Below are positions 26,445 to 31,564 of a stretch of DNA of 64,000 bases, one piece after another. The DNA is from Bacteroidetes bacterium RIFCSPLOWO2_12_FULL_37_12 (lineage in GTDB: Bacteria; Bacteroidota; Bacteroidia; 2-12-FULL-37-12). Every line of letters starts with the position of its first letter. The stretch's first letter is position 1. The stretch covers positions 62,001-126,000 of the forward strand of contig MEPC01000020.1 in NCBI GenBank assembly GCA_001769655.1, given 5' to 3'. Below the pieces are notes generated by a model, which had not been told where the DNA came from, did not search any database, and worked only from the letters and a program-made list of their open reading frames with translations. Position numbers and translations under genes: made by a program.

Positions 26445-27305
26445 ATGAAGCAATTAATTTTTTCCGGATACCTTTTATGCGGGTTATTTATGTTTTTCAA
26501 ATCATCTGCACAAATTCAATTACCTGCTCCCAGTCCTAAAGCTGTCGTTTCTCAAACGGCTGGATTGACGGATATAACCATTGACTACAGCAGTCCTGGT
26601 GTAAAAGGCAGAAAAATCTGGGGTGAACTTGTACCCTATAACAAACCCTGGCGTGCCGGTGCGAATGCCGCAACTAAAATCACTTTCAGCAAGGAGGTGA
26701 AAGTGGACACTACAACTGTTCCAAAAGGAAGTTACTCCGTAGCCATCACTCCCTCTGAAAAGGAAGAATGGACGCTTGTATTGAACAAAGATGCCGATGC
26801 ACAACCCGATGATCAAAAACCGGAAAACGATATTGTCAGGATAAAAATTAAACCCATGGAAATACCGTTGAGAGAACGCCTTGCATACTCTATTACTGAT
26901 TTTAATGATGCAAGCGCTATGGTAAATATGGAATGGGAAAAAGTAAAAATTTCTTTCAATGTAGTGTTGGGCACCGAAAAACAAGCAATGGAAAATATCA
27001 ACAATGCCATTAATCCGTCTTTTAGTGTTTACAGAAATGCCGCCCGCTACATGCTGGAAAAAAAGGATTACGACAAGGGTTTGGTTTATATCAATCAGTC
27101 CATTGCCATAGACGCACTCAAATGGTACAGCCATTGGCTCAAAGCACAATTATTAAAAGCAAAAGGAATGGACAAAGATGCCTACAATTCAGTGCTTAAA
27201 GCAAAAGAACTTGGGGATAAAGAAGGAGATGGATTCTTCTTTAAAGCGGAAGTGGAAAAAGCTGTGGTTGATTGGAAGCCGGTGATGGAGGTGAAGAAGA
27301 AATAG
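26445..27305 (+). CDS. DUF2911 domain protein with C-terminal TPR-like region
   Basis: This 286-residue protein has a signal peptide (~1-22, ending SSAQ). The DUF2911 domain follows, recognisable from ITIDYSSPGVKGRKIWGELVPYNKPWRAGANAATKI and the later VPKGSYSVAI. The C-terminal third has TPR-like helices (YDKGLVYINQSIAIDALKWYSHWLKAQLLKAKG). The family is common in Bacteroidota, exported, and of unknown function. Its last 65 bases overlap the convergent symporter gene. Confidence 0.85.
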   Translation: MKQLIFSGYLLCGLFMFFKSSAQIQLPAPSPKAVVSQTAGLTDITIDYSSPGVKGRKIWGELVPYNKPWRAGANAATKITFSKEVKVDTTTVPKGSYSVAITPSEKEEWTLVLNKDADAQPDDQKPENDIVRIKIKPMEIPLRERLAYSITDFNDASAMVNMEWEKVKISFNVVLGTEKQAMENINNAINPSFSVYRNAARYMLEKKDYDKGLVYINQSIAIDALKWYSHWLKAQLLKAKGMDKDAYNSVLKAKELGDKEGDGFFFKAEVEKAVVDWKPVMEVKKK

Positions 27306-28974
27306 ACAATTGAATCAGATGCGCAACTATAACCACCAGAATCGCCCCAATCACATTGTACCATAAAAATGAAACCGGCGTAAATACAGCGCAAAGGATA
27401 ACTCCGATTTCAGCAATCAGTGCAGAATAAAAAGCAGTACTTCCTTTAATACGCTTAAACAAAAACGCAAGTATAAAAATTCCGAGTATCGTCCCATAAA
27501 AATAAGAACCCAATTTATTTACCGCTTCTATCAAACTGCCGAGATTCGTTGATAATTGTGCAACGAGAATCGCATATATTCCCCATCCGGCTGTAAACCA
27601 TTTAGATGCGGAGAGATAATGTGCATCGGTTTTGTTTGTTCTGAAATTTCGTTTGTAAATATCAATCAAGGTAGTGGAGGCAAGCGCATTCAACTCGGAG
27701 GAAGTGGATGACATGGAAGCGGCAAAAACCAATGCTATGAGTAAGCCCACCACTCCTACGGGCAAATATTCCAACACATACGAGAGAAAAATATAATTCA
27801 CATCTGAGGTGGCTGATGTTGCAGAATTTTTTTTCATTATGGCAATCCCTTCCTCCTTTAATGATTTTCTTTTTTCACATTCTATTTTTAATTGTTCTAC
27901 ATTGGACACAAAAGAATTATCGTCTTTGTTTCTCAATGAATTTGCTGTGCTGACAGCAATCGTGTTGATTTGGCGCTGGCAATCATTAAAATCTGTCTCA
28001 ACTTTTTTAAATTCATCCGAATAAACGCTCTGTTTTACTTTTTCTAATTCTACTTTGTTGAAAAGAAGAGGGACGGGAACAAAAAGATAAAAAACAAAGA
28101 GAATGGCGCCGATTAAAAGAATGGAAAACTGCATTGGAATTTTTACAAGCCCATTAAAAAGAAGACCTATTTTATTCTCTGTCACAGATTTTGCAGAAAG
28201 ATACCGTGACACCTGCGACTGGTCGGTTCCGAAATAAGAGAGCGCAAGAAACATTCCGCCAATTAATCCGGACCAAATAGTGTATTGATTGGAAAAATTA
28301 TGGCTCACATCTATGATATTCATCTTTCCCATTTTACCGGCGATGCGTATTGCCTCCGTAAACCCTACATTATCCGGCAGATAATAAATCAGTAAAAATC
28401 CGGCTACAAACATTCCCACAAGAATGATAGCCATTTGTGGTAATTGTGTGTAACTTACTGCTTTTGTTCCACCAGTTACCGTGTAAATTATTACAATTCC
28501 ACCGATGACTATGTTAGTGAGATAAATATTCCATCCCAACAAAGTTGAAAGAATTATTGCGGGAGCATAAATGGTAAGCCCCGAAGCAATTCCTCTTTGA
28601 ATGAGGAATAACAATGCCGCAAGGGATCTGGTTTTTAAATCAAAACGTGTTTCTAAAAATTGATACGCTGTATAAATTTTTAAACGATGATAAACCGGAA
28701 CTACAAAAATGCAGATGAGGATCATGGCGAGTGGTAGCCCGAAATAAAACTGCACAAACCGCATTCCGTCAGTGTATGCCTGCCCTGGTCCTGATAAAAA
28801 AGTTATGGCGCTTGCCTGAGTCGCCATTACTGAAAGTCCTACGGCATACCAGGGGAGGGTATTATCTCCTCTCAGATAACGTTCGGTGTTTTGTGTCCCA
28901 CGACTTTTGTAAATTCCATACACCGAGATAAACACCAGCGATGAAATCAATATGCTCCAGTCAATCCCGCTCAT
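27241..28974 (-). CDS. Sodium:solute symporter (SSS family)
   Basis: This 577-residue protein has about 13 hydrophobic helices with typical SSS blocks: RYLRGDNTLPWYAVGLSVMATQASAITFLSGPG near the start and YFGTDQSQVSRYLSAKS in the middle. The substrate is unknown. It is translationally coupled (ATGA overlap) to a 39-residue membrane peptide, itself coupled to a PIG-L deacetylase-like gene, so the transporter may carry a product of that hydrolase; this is inference. The final ~20 residues (Ser/Pro rich) are read from the antisense strand of the convergent DUF2911 gene and are probably not functional. Confidence 0.9.
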   Translation of the reverse strand: MSGIDWSILISSLVFISVYGIYKSRGTQNTERYLRGDNTLPWYAVGLSVMATQASAITFLSGPGQAYTDGMRFVQFYFGLPLAMILICIFVVPVYHRLKIYTAYQFLETRFDLKTRSLAALLFLIQRGIASGLTIYAPAIILSTLLGWNIYLTNIVIGGIVIIYTVTGGTKAVSYTQLPQMAIILVGMFVAGFLLIYYLPDNVGFTEAIRIAGKMGKMNIIDVSHNFSNQYTIWSGLIGGMFLALSYFGTDQSQVSRYLSAKSVTENKIGLLFNGLVKIPMQFSILLIGAILFVFYLFVPVPLLFNKVELEKVKQSVYSDEFKKVETDFNDCQRQINTIAVSTANSLRNKDDNSFVSNVEQLKIECEKRKSLKEEGIAIMKKNSATSATSDVNYIFLSYVLEYLPVGVVGLLIALVFAASMSSTSSELNALASTTLIDIYKRNFRTNKTDAHYLSASKWFTAGWGIYAILVAQLSTNLGSLIEAVNKLGSYFYGTILGIFILAFLFKRIKGSTAFYSALIAEIGVILCAVFTPVSFLWYNVIGAILVVIVAHLIQLSISSSPPSPASNQPQLFPLPL

Positions 28975-29090
28975 TGAAATGTAATGGTTATTAAGTAAAA
29001 CAAAAGGATGAGTACCGCAAGAAAAACAGACAGGGCAGAATACCAGTAAGTCCAGTTTTTGAAAAAAGGGGGTTTGTCTTCGGGAGTCAT
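28971..29090 (-). CDS. Small single-pass membrane protein, 39 residues
   Basis: This short ORF starts MTPEDKPPFFKNWTYWY and continues as one hydrophobic helix (SALSVFLAVLILLFYLITITF) to a final Gln. Both ends are coupled by ATGA overlaps: its ATG overlaps the stop of the PIG-L-like gene and its stop overlaps the symporter ATG. A soluble Trp/Tyr-rich head plus one helix directly before an SSS transporter suggests a small accessory subunit of the symporter, as known for some SSS carriers. The reading is direct; the role is inferred. Confidence 0.75.
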   Translation of the reverse strand: MTPEDKPPFFKNWTYWYSALSVFLAVLILLFYLITITFQ

Positions 29091-31564
29091 TTTCTTATAC
29101 TTAACAAATTAGCAAATAAACGATAAGCGCCCGGTACTCCCGCGGGCAACTGCCGGAAAAACGACAATCCGGTATAAATAAAATGACCTTTACCGTATTT
29201 TGCAGTGATAATACTGCCGGAGGAAGGTTTTTCTCCCGGATCATTCATAGATAAAATTGTTTTGTAGGATTTATCCATGTCGGAAACAAAATATAATCCT
29301 CGCTCTTGTATCCATCCTTCAAAATCCTTTTCTGTTATTTTATTAGGAAAGTTCAATAAAGGATGTGATGAATCAGTAATTGAAACAGGAGAATTCTCAA
29401 CCGTTACACGTTCTCTTGAAATTTTAAATGGAAATGGACCCATCTCTGATTTTACAGTTCCAAGAAAATTATTTGTGTTATACTGAACTAACAGCGTGCC
29501 ACCGTTGAAAATATATTTCATTAATTTTGTGTGATATTTTTGCATGAATTGATTCGTATTGTAAGCGCGGATTCCGGTCACAATAACATCAAAACGGGAA
29601 AGATCTTCGGTTGAAAGTGCGTGCTCATTTAGCTGTACAACAGTACCGCCCATCTGCTCTATGCACTCAGACACATCGTCTCCGGCACCGTTGATGTAAC
29701 CGATGGTTTTTGCTTTCATGGAATAATCCGTGCAAGTCAATGTTGCTCTTGACTCGCTTACTAAAATCATTTCAGGAATATGTGAATAATTGATTTCTGT
29801 TAATGCGCTTGAGTATCGTTTATCACCGGTTTCTACATATACTTTAATAAATCCATTGGAAAGGTGAGGAGGTGAAGTAATCAAAAAAGAAAATTCTTTT
29901 TTCTCACCGGTTGTTAACGAATCAAAAGCAAATTCAGCCGGCGTTGAACTCCATCCTTCAGGCATTTCAAGCAATAATTTCCCTTTTATATTTTGAAAAT
30001 GTGTCTCAAGCCAAACAATCATTTTTTTTGTTTGTGATGGCTTAAAAATGTAGGATTTGGTTTGAAAATTTACTGTAACCGGCGGAACGACTTCAATATT
30101 TCTTTGTTTCTCCCCTTCTACAGGGTCAGTCCATTTAAAAATAAGGGGTTGATGGAACTCTATTTTTTCTCCATGAATTATTAATGTGAAAATTGCTTCC
30201 AATACAGGTTTATTCTCAGCCCTGCCTACCAATGTAATATCTTCCAATTGATGCAGACCTTCTGCCCCTTTGTTTTTCAACCAGAAGGGAGTGGTGTAAG
30301 GAGTAGTTGAAGGTATGGTGATTTTAAAATCTTTTAGAAATGATTCGTTTAATTTTAGTTCCGCATTGACTGATGAATCCAACCCTGCAATTTTTAAACG
30401 TTCTATTGTTATGGGAAGTGGTGACATGTTTAGGGCATACATATTCACTTTCAGATCTTTTCCTGGAACAATAAATTTTTCTTTCGAAGTTACTTCCAAC
30501 CACACGCCCAGACATTGTTGAATGATCTGCTTAATATCTTCTTTTTTCTTTTCTTTCCAGTATTCATCTTTTATATTCTCTGCTGACTTCAGTGCTTTTA
30601 ATAGAATCTCTGCAACCAGATAGGGTTTGTTGTCATTGAATGATTGTAACGCATTACCTACATAAGTACCGTAATCGTTAGTACCAATCGTTCTGGAAAT
30701 ATCAACGGAAATTCCTTCAAAGATATCGTTGCTTTCAGAAGAGTCCCCTTTGATGTGTTTAAAATATTCCATTTTACTTCCTCTTGTGGAGGCAGAGCCG
30801 AAGCCCTGACTTTTGTGCATGGTCCGGCTTTGTGCCGCAATTTCTCCATAAGATTTTCCAAGTAAAGGATTGTACGCGCCAATATCAAGTTTGTAAAAAG
30901 GCGAAAGATCCTTTACAGTGTCCTGCACCCATGTATTCCATAACAACCGTTTGCATTTCCATGGTTTTACATAATTGAGTTGCCATTTAAACTGAGTAGA
31001 GTCAGCCGCGGCATCAAAAGCGATTTCAGCCAAAATAGCTGATGCGGTATGATGTCCATGCCCCCCATCCCCATTGGAAGGAAAGCGATTAATGATTATA
31101 TCGGGGCGCACATTTCTGATGAGCCATACTACATCGGAAAGCACGCTGTCTTTATTCCAGATAGTCATGGTTTCTTCCGGCGTTTTAGAAAAACCAAAAT
31201 CGCGGGCGCGGGTAAAATATTGCCGGGCTTTATCAATTTTTCTTGCTGACAGCAACTCTTGTGTCCGTACCATTCCGAGGAGATCGCCTTGTTCGGTTCC
31301 GATGAGATTTTGTCCGCCATCACCGCGGGTAATAGACAAATACGAGGTAATAACTAATTTTTCATTCGCCAGAAAGGAGAGCAAGCGTGTATTTTCATCA
31401 TCGGGGTGTGCCGCAATGTACAAGACAGAGCCGGCGACTGATAATTTTTTGAGCGCTAATCTTAGCTCGGAACTATTCAGCGATTGAGGTAATGGTTGTG
31501 AAATAGCTATTCCTGAAATCAGAAAAAGGAGGAAAAACAGATATTTTAAATTTTTTATAAACAC
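29087..31564 (-). CDS. PIG-L/LmbE-type deacetylase with C-terminal extension
   Basis: The product has 825 residues. After a signal peptide (~1-22), the PIG-L domain shows the zinc-binding AHPDDE at ~57-62 and the later GHGHH (~171-175). The remaining ~500 residues contain immunoglobulin-like beta regions and a C-terminal part with a ThuA/GATase-like look (FDVIVTGIRAYNTN...YIFNGGTLLVQYNTNNF). Such enzymes deacetylate N-acetyl sugars; the substrate is unknown. The start is a GTG. A TATATTTG element at 31573-31580 ends only 8 bases upstream, so the mRNA would have almost no leader. Confidence 0.85.
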   Translation of the reverse strand: MFIKNLKYLFFLLFLISGIAISQPLPQSLNSSELRLALKKLSVAGSVLYIAAHPDDENTRLLSFLANEKLVITSYLSITRGDGGQNLIGTEQGDLLGMVRTQELLSARKIDKARQYFTRARDFGFSKTPEETMTIWNKDSVLSDVVWLIRNVRPDIIINRFPSNGDGGHGHHTASAILAEIAFDAAADSTQFKWQLNYVKPWKCKRLLWNTWVQDTVKDLSPFYKLDIGAYNPLLGKSYGEIAAQSRTMHKSQGFGSASTRGSKMEYFKHIKGDSSESNDIFEGISVDISRTIGTNDYGTYVGNALQSFNDNKPYLVAEILLKALKSAENIKDEYWKEKKKEDIKQIIQQCLGVWLEVTSKEKFIVPGKDLKVNMYALNMSPLPITIERLKIAGLDSSVNAELKLNESFLKDFKITIPSTTPYTTPFWLKNKGAEGLHQLEDITLVGRAENKPVLEAIFTLIIHGEKIEFHQPLIFKWTDPVEGEKQRNIEVVPPVTVNFQTKSYIFKPSQTKKMIVWLETHFQNIKGKLLLEMPEGWSSTPAEFAFDSLTTGEKKEFSFLITSPPHLSNGFIKVYVETGDKRYSSALTEINYSHIPEMILVSESRATLTCTDYSMKAKTIGYINGAGDDVSECIEQMGGTVVQLNEHALSTEDLSRFDVIVTGIRAYNTNQFMQKYHTKLMKYIFNGGTLLVQYNTNNFLGTVKSEMGPFPFKISRERVTVENSPVSITDSSHPLLNFPNKITEKDFEGWIQERGLYFVSDMDKSYKTILSMNDPGEKPSSGSIITAKYGKGHFIYTGLSFFRQLPAGVPGAYRLFANLLSIRK

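Follow-up and report, generated by a model that had tools for sequence, protein, structure and literature searches.

A conserved one-helix membrane peptide encoded ahead of a sodium-solute symporter, its probable partner, in Bacteroidota and other phyla

Three genes lie head to tail on the minus strand of a 64,000-nt stretch of DNA (the window) from Bacteroidetes bacterium RIFCSPLOWO2_12_FULL_37_12 (GCA_001769655.1, contig MEPC01000020.1, positions 62,001-126,000 of the forward strand). In order of transcription they encode a PIG-L/LmbE-type hydrolase of 825 aa (PIG-L; 29087..31564), a 39-residue peptide for which we use the name SM (28971..29090), and a 577-aa sodium-solute symporter (SSS; 27241..28974). 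Each junction is a 4-nt ATGA overlap, the PIG-L stop running into the SM start at 29087..29090 and the SM stop into the SSS start at 28971..28974, as described in an earlier note on this DNA. The translation of SM, MTPEDKPPFFKNWTYWYSALSVFLAVLILLFYLITITFQ, also bears out that note's description of a Trp/Tyr-rich head followed by one hydrophobic helix: Trp13 and Tyr17 mark the head, the helix spans about residues 13-38, and the predicted orientation is N-terminus in, C-terminus out. SM matches no Pfam or NCBIfam family. Its neighbors are readily named, the symporter by PF00474 (134.9 bits vs a cut-off of 22.8, E 4.6e-39) and TIGR00813, the hydrolase by PF02585 (53.2 bits vs a cut-off of 28.2, E 5.7e-14).

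A short open reading frame (ORF) of this kind recurs in the same position in many other genomes. Among 60 genomes (the window's own and relatives from its class), 25 loci with an SSS orthologue were found besides that of the window (L005-L029), and an SM-like single-helix ORF precedes SSS in 21 of them as well as in the window; no such ORF was seen before SSS in L010, L012, L027, and L029. A hidden Markov model (HMM) of the peptide was used for a six-frame scan of the best 80 of 587 confirmed genome loci, which had been found by the SSS profile alone (the named loci). SM is present in 79 of these (E<1), no more than about 200 bp from the SSS start in 78 of the 79, with weak matches in three (L140, L163, and L169; E 0.1-0.3). 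The locus without SM, L157, carries a PemK/MazF-type toxin gene (PF02452; 7662-7997) between PIG-L and SSS, at SM's usual place, and in L158 a single SSS is preceded by two SM-like ORFs, one at about 2.0 kb and the other at about 0.3 kb from it.

Broader sampling points the same way. In 395 genomes drawn evenly from the class, SSS is found in 211 (E<=1e-80) and an HMM of 22 SM peptides matches 203 (E<=0.05). Of the 150 listed with SM at E<=2.3e-6, 149 have SSS, and in the single remaining genome the contig ends with an SSS start visible behind SM. Both places are listed for 120 genomes (the SSS place is not listed for 29 further SM-bearing ones), and in 116 of these SM is encoded on the SSS strand and ends no more than 200 bp ahead of SSS; of the other four, one is split across contigs and three carry SM after PIG-L, SSS being at another place. 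Among the 62 SSS-bearing genomes without a listed SM, 17 plus 12 carry a divergent SM (two of the 12 being weak, E 0.02 and 0.04), and 29 have none at the locus. Altogether, SM accompanies 178 of the 211 symporters, with 29 lacking it at the locus and four undecidable (two contig ends or cut SSS genes, two not examined). In the phylum that holds the Aminicenantes, SSS occurs in 47 of 149 genomes, and SM stands before it in 28 of 30 fetched loci (E<0.01), the exceptions being the genome of locus L105, described below, and one SM match at E 0.1. Conservation of the short ORF in the same gap elsewhere was the test that the earlier note had set beforehand, and these counts from the class and from a second phylum answer it in the affirmative. 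SM thereby appears to be an old and conserved companion of SSS in several phyla.

Alignment of 211 SM proteins (median length 38 aa) reveals a compact pattern of constraint, with W13 kept in 96%, Y17 in 99%, and I28 in 85%. In 34 independent close pairs the pN/pS ratio is 0.23 for SM vs 0.098 for SSS. Conservation along the peptide has a periodicity peaking at 100 degrees per residue, the 3.6-residue repeat of a helix, a peak reached by 0 of 10,000 permutations, so that one face of the SM helix is constrained. Averages of 2.7 basic and 1.8 acidic residues precede Y17, against 0.6 and 0.2 beyond T35; under the positive-inside rule this bias would place the N-terminus in the cytoplasm and the C-terminus in the periplasm. 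Taken as sequence evidence, these patterns mark SM as a real protein under purifying selection and tied to SSS. That it is a chance hydrophobic ORF in an intergenic gap, as its shortness and the missing Pfam and NCBIfam matches might suggest, is refuted by its cross-phylum conservation, selection, and placement, and deserves practically no credence.

The two overlaps fare differently in comparison. A 4-nt overlap of SM with SSS is found in 54 of 77 named loci and 16 of 22 relatives, sets found via SSS alone, and in 158 of 211 pairs in a set partly picked through SM matches; the 4-nt overlap of PIG-L with SM is found in 1 of 58 named loci. Only the SM/SSS overlap is conserved, and we gave up the view that both ATGA overlaps are significant. 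The coupled three-gene unit proposed earlier thus survives in its SM-SSS half and hardly at the PIG-L junction; of the wider interpretation offered with it, a conserved ORF partnered with the symporter is retained, and meaning for both overlaps is not.

So regular an overlap could also be read as that of a mere leader ORF, whose translation brings ribosomes to the SSS start while the peptide itself has no role. There is a precedent in cbrX, a small gene overlapping cbrA: a frame-altered peptide still gave CbrA, and the 2019 conclusion was that translation of cbrX matters and not its sequence (PMC6591292). The low pN/pS and the conserved helix face of SM do not fit this, nor do the 48 of 211 pairs that keep SM without any overlap with SSS. 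In genomes G107, G199, and G205, SM retains its Trp and Tyr and immediately follows PIG-L while SSS lies elsewhere, so that SM cannot be the SSS leader there. The symporter itself, moreover, changes where SM has been lost (see below). We regard a pure leader role as unlikely.

The same three genomes, in which SM has stayed with PIG-L and not with SSS, might instead suggest that SM belongs to the hydrolase, which it would anchor or escort at the inner membrane, adjacency to SSS being a matter of gene order. A PIG-L family member does occur in 62 of the 80 named loci, in most cases immediately upstream. However, named loci without a nearby PIG-L still keep SM in front of SSS; in L394, L398, and L401, all from the Aminicenantes phylum, PIG-L is downstream of SSS while SM precedes SSS; and the changes that accompany SM loss are found in SSS, in a comparison that was run on SSS alone. 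A PIG-L partnership is accordingly judged improbable, and the evidence supports the symporter rather than the hydrolase as SM's partner. PIG-L is nonetheless part of the same story: an orthologue is held by all 23 genomes searched (one cut at a contig end), away from SSS in 21 of them and beside it in G014 and G034, and its presence even where unlinked suggests that the parts travel together.

A read-through SM-SSS structure prediction for the relative L277, with an alignment of 16 read-through SM-SSS pairs and 62 SSS rows, gives a pTM of 0.87 and 13 SSS transmembrane (TM) helices, numbered TM0-TM12 from the secondary structure of that model. Among known folds the closest is that of the sialic acid symporter SiaT (E 3.9e-20). 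Near-invariant S423, in an alignment read by hand, coincides with a Na2-site serine of SiaT, and SSS is probably sodium-coupled. SiaT-like binding of sialic acid is doubted: at the position of SiaT Arg135, the carboxylate-binding residue, the hand-read alignment has a non-arginine. Unlike SiaT, this SSS has between TM7 and TM8 a helical insert of ~80 residues, periplasmic by topology (SSS residues about 305-392; window 27799-28062, minus strand), which interrupts its Pfam match and might contact PIG-L or the DUF2911 protein encoded next door. In one family SSS has about 240 extra C-terminal residues (L020, an 821-aa frame; L370, 811 aa), and Pfam names nothing in the L020 extension (E<=0.001). 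No natural SM-SSS fusion was noticed among the matches listed, no dedicated search for one having been made.

Small subunits of SLC5-type carriers are already known in kind, and the SM family is what is new here. The closest parallel is CbrX, a 58-aa two-helix peptide whose gene overlaps cbrA and which cryo-EM places on the SLC5 domain of CbrA, packed on TM3 and TM8 beneath the periplasmic loop TM6/7 (PMC13022988, 2026 preprint). Since the broken helices of CbrA are TM2 and TM7, its numbers run one higher than the 0-based ones used here and the sites coincide: CbrX occupies TM2, TM7, and loop TM5/6 in our numbering, the region implicated for SM on SSS. In both cases the gene for a small membrane peptide lies just upstream of, and overlaps, that of a 13-TM SLC5/SSS protein, and CbrX is both translationally coupled to its carrier and bound to it. 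The differences are equally clear: CbrX has about 58 aa, two helices, and a 17-nt overlap, whereas SM has one helix, a median of 38 aa, and usually a 4-nt overlap; the partner of CbrX is a histidine-kinase transceptor, that of SM a plain 577-aa SSS with no STAC or kinase part. Helix number, length, and partner set SM apart from CbrX, and it falls outside the two-helix hairpins of about 58 aa that precede SLC5-STAC kinases.

Other small partners offer looser analogies. MAP17 has the opposite orientation to that predicted for SM, and the DUF485 and DUF3311 proteins have two helices. Like SM, MAP17 (PDZK1IP1) is a single helix, an auxiliary of SGLT2 and SGLT1 that contacts TM13 (PMC10803289), and SM is proposed to be such an auxiliary of a sodium-coupled SLC5-type carrier; MAP17 is, however, eukaryotic, with longer tails, and the SSS model here is without the TM13 it touches. 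A PDB search up to E 10 matched 3 sequences, none of them MAP17. Genes for small membrane proteins also adjoin bacterial SSS genes in the case of DUF485 beside ActP (PMC5715377) and DUF3311 beside MctP (PMC9100948), which belong to other Pfam families. When 22 SM members were compared with Pfam up to E 10, the 25 families listed did not include DUF485, DUF997, DUF3311, or DUF4212, and the idea of SM as a piece of such a known DUF family was dropped. Literature searches, confined to open PMC papers, turned up none that describes a small SSS partner from these phyla or connects PIG-L and SSS with bacillithiol.

Where SM might sit on its carrier can be approached through the lineages that have lost it. 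Parsimony on a tree of SSS sequences (226 with SM, 28 without, and 3 whose SM lies elsewhere) counts nine changes and as many SM-less clades, or about nine independent losses. The SSS column that changes most clearly with loss is G213 in loop TM5/6 (p 8e-8), followed by F283 and 297 (TM7), 230 (before TM6), and S433 (TM8). The smallest of these p values was reached by 0 of 300 mock sets of SM-bearing clades, and the placement of four of the top five columns in TM2, loop TM5/6, or TM7 was matched by 1 of 300, the test region having been taken from the CbrX paper and the match noticed after the columns were seen. A rank test over all columns finds loop TM5/6 significant (p 0.0006). In the three genomes where SM does not adjoin SSS, the symporter retains G213 and F283.

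Covariation between the two proteins leads to the same loop. In a mean-field analysis of 253 SM/SSS pairs, the top two couplings are SM34-SSS218 (z 8.6) and SM35-SSS220 (6.5), and SM31-220 and SM34-220 join SM35-220 in the top 20; between the SM end and SSS residues 205-226 there are four pairs in the top 20 where shuffles give no more than two. With 211 pairs the same two couplings rank second and third, and pairs between the SM end and the loop again number four in the top 20, shuffles giving no more than one. Pairing of SM31, SM34, and SM35 with SSS 218-220 fits a periplasmic SM C-terminal end lying below loop TM5/6. The statistics support an SM contact at this loop near TM7, with SSS residues 205-226 (28297..28362, minus strand), including G213, 218, and 220, as the proposed meeting point of the SM C-terminus.

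A dedicated one-helix subunit of SSS is the account of SM that we favor and consider probable, together with a module in which PIG-L takes part and bacillithiol is the most likely setting. SM would be synthesized in step with SSS via the start-stop overlap and inserted with its N-terminus inside and its C-terminus in the periplasm, its conserved face (W13, Y17, L/V20, L24, I28, F31, T35, and F38) packing on SSS and its periplasmic end contacting loop TM5/6 near TM7, where the apparently unrelated CbrX sits on CbrA. Most likely, SM would help to keep the folded carrier stable, or hold that loop steady while transport proceeds, in the way that MAP17 supports SGLT2; this stabilizing role is inferred. 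The carrier would work with a secreted LmbE-type N-acyl-glucosamine hydrolase, PIG-L. In the setting that seems most likely, the periplasmic substrate cleaved by PIG-L would be bacillithiol or one of its S-conjugates, and SSS would bring back a product, GlcN-malate for example, to be used again.

A number of observations pull the other way for the subunit and its docking site. The 29 of 211 SSS-bearing genomes without SM at the locus, 15 of them in one family, mean that SSS can function without SM, and CbrX is likewise reported to be dispensable for growth of P. putida on histidine (PMC13022988). The read-through SM-SSS fold gives no SM contacts, with a pLDDT near 77 for the SM helix. The contact site rests on few SSS columns, one of which, 230, changes merely from Arg to Lys; in the all-column rank test TM7 (0.35), TM2 (0.96), and the three regions together (0.12) are not significant, and SM-loss clades are more divergent across the entire SSS. 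As for covariation, the set is small (253 pairs, effective 179), 16 clade-wise shuffles reach a maximum of 7.8 so that only SM34-SSS218 stands clear of them, and with 211 pairs no coupling rises above the shuffles (6.9, where 19 shuffles go as high as 7.9). The residue range for counting loop pairs was fixed after the first covariation result had been seen, and SM20-SSS85, SM28-SSS437, and others are incompatible with a single docking pose.

If it holds, the subunit reading would add an ancient one-helix family to the known partners of SLC5-type carriers, and arrival at the docking region that CbrX uses in Pseudomonas suggests a general regulatory or stabilizing site on the fold. There are practical consequences as well: gene callers that pass over very short ORFs will miss SM, and work on these symporters in a foreign host may not succeed if SM is left out.

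The hydrolase gives the first indication of what the carrier might transport. Its metal motifs, AAHPDDEN (residues 51-58) and HGHH with H169 and H172, are invariant in 56 sequences, leaving the catalytic motif intact, and its N-terminus is signal-like. The structural model is confident (pLDDT 90) and shows C-terminal parts that are beta-rich (Ig-like) and Rossmann-like, domains read from the model's secondary structure; it matches many beta-rich proteins, and its hydrolase part matches diacetylchitobiose deacetylases. Mycothiol conjugate amidase Mca (TIGR03446) is the best NCBIfam equivalog for all seven PIG-L members scanned, each of them below the cut-off of 277 bits (33.6 for the window's PIG-L, 38-53 for six relatives). 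LmbE-like enzymes act on N-acylglucosamine cores, Mca and Bca on thiol S-conjugates (PMC4101496). With these members of the LmbE-like superfamily PIG-L shares the metal motif and the best equivalog match, and N-acyl-glucosamine substrates are a feature of Mca and Bca; it differs from them in scoring far below the Mca cut-off, in its signal-like N-terminus, and in about 600 residues beyond the hydrolase part.

On the other side of the window's symporter, convergent with it and overlapping its 3' end, lies a gene for a DUF2911 protein (26445..27305, plus strand; PF11138, E 2.1e-46). It is a recurrent neighbor of the module: 47 of the 80 named loci contain relatives, and 48 out of 50 such genes lie on the strand opposite SSS. 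DUF2911 also accompanies the module in the Aminicenantes phylum, and the literature listings included one paper that names the family.

Bacillithiol is a protective thiol built on GlcN-malate, a core that is in its turn a deacetylated amino sugar. Genes for its synthesis stand beside the module in a few genomes. In L406 and L407 the order is bshC, bshB1, bshA, PIG-L, SM, SSS, contiguous with hardly any space for other genes, with GTGA or ATGA overlaps at PIG-L/SM and SM/SSS and a DUF2911 match upstream; on the Aminicenantes chromosome of L105 the run is rearranged to DUF2911, PIG-L, SM, bshC, bshB1, bshA, SSS, with SM behind PIG-L and 3.7 kb from SSS. All the bshA, bshB1, and bshC genes of these three loci score above their NCBIfam equivalog cut-offs. 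BshC also goes with SSS at the level of genomes, in 209 of 211 SSS-bearing vs 152 of 184 other class genomes (Fisher 1.1e-9) and in 40 of 47 vs 42 of 102 genomes of the Aminicenantes phylum (Fisher 3.9e-7), and it was found in all five named genomes searched outside Bacteroidota. In the window the bsh genes are not near the module, and the genome it comes from does have a BshC match.

These gene runs and the co-occurrence point to bacillithiol, and together with the substrates of Mca and LmbE enzymes they lead us to propose periplasmic cleavage and re-uptake. A deacetylated amino sugar of the GlcN-malate type is a plausible substrate of the carrier, given the intact PIG-L catalytic motif and the bsh neighborhoods, and recovery or turnover of bacillithiol is the leading candidate for the module's role, suggested by gene neighbors. 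The fuller proposal would be a salvage route in bacteria with a periplasm, in which a secreted Mca/Bca-like amidase and an SSS/SM symporter return GlcN-malate or another product, spread over Bacteroidota, the Aminicenantes phylum, Ignavibacteriales, Calditrichia, and Eisenbacteria; we offer it tentatively, since its chances seem somewhat short of even.

Several facts tell against bacillithiol. The co-occurrence tests ignore shared descent; seven SSS-bearing genomes of the Aminicenantes phylum are without BshC at E<=1e-20; and BshC lies no more than 8 kb from SSS in only 7 of that phylum's 47 SSS genomes, separated from it by mutL and other genes in four of the seven, bsh genes being near the module in 1 of the 80 named loci. 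The module might then be unrelated to bacillithiol, with PIG-L trimming some other N-acetylated sugar, SSS importing the product, and the bsh neighbors reflecting gene order in a few lineages and phylogeny. The seven BshC-less genomes, the small number in which bsh genes adjoin the module, the 152 class genomes with BshC and without SSS, and the diacetylchitobiose deacetylases among the nearest solved folds all favor this alternative, to which we would give only slightly less than an even chance. It accounts less well for contiguous bsh-module runs in two genomes and a rearranged one in a third, for co-occurrence of BshC and SSS that is significant in two phyla, and for Mca as best equivalog of every PIG-L member scanned. 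If the bacillithiol link is true, the module becomes a candidate for recovery of low-molecular-weight thiols from the periplasm in these phyla, and the recurring PIG-L/SSS/DUF2911 gene group gains a function.

The DinB superfamily includes bacillithiol transferases, and proteins that Pfam assigns to it are encoded near the module in L105 (348-920), L171 (11214-11732), and L110 (2273-2794); that DinB-type thiol transferases are fixed neighbors became less likely, as they occur in 8 of the 80 named loci and do not cluster around SSS. Four genomes of the Aminicenantes phylum (L402-L405) have, ahead of the SM-SSS pair, bshC, then a mutL-like gene, a probable regulator of the ROK type, and a large TonB/carboxypeptidase-like ORF, the last three being named from sequence starts only.

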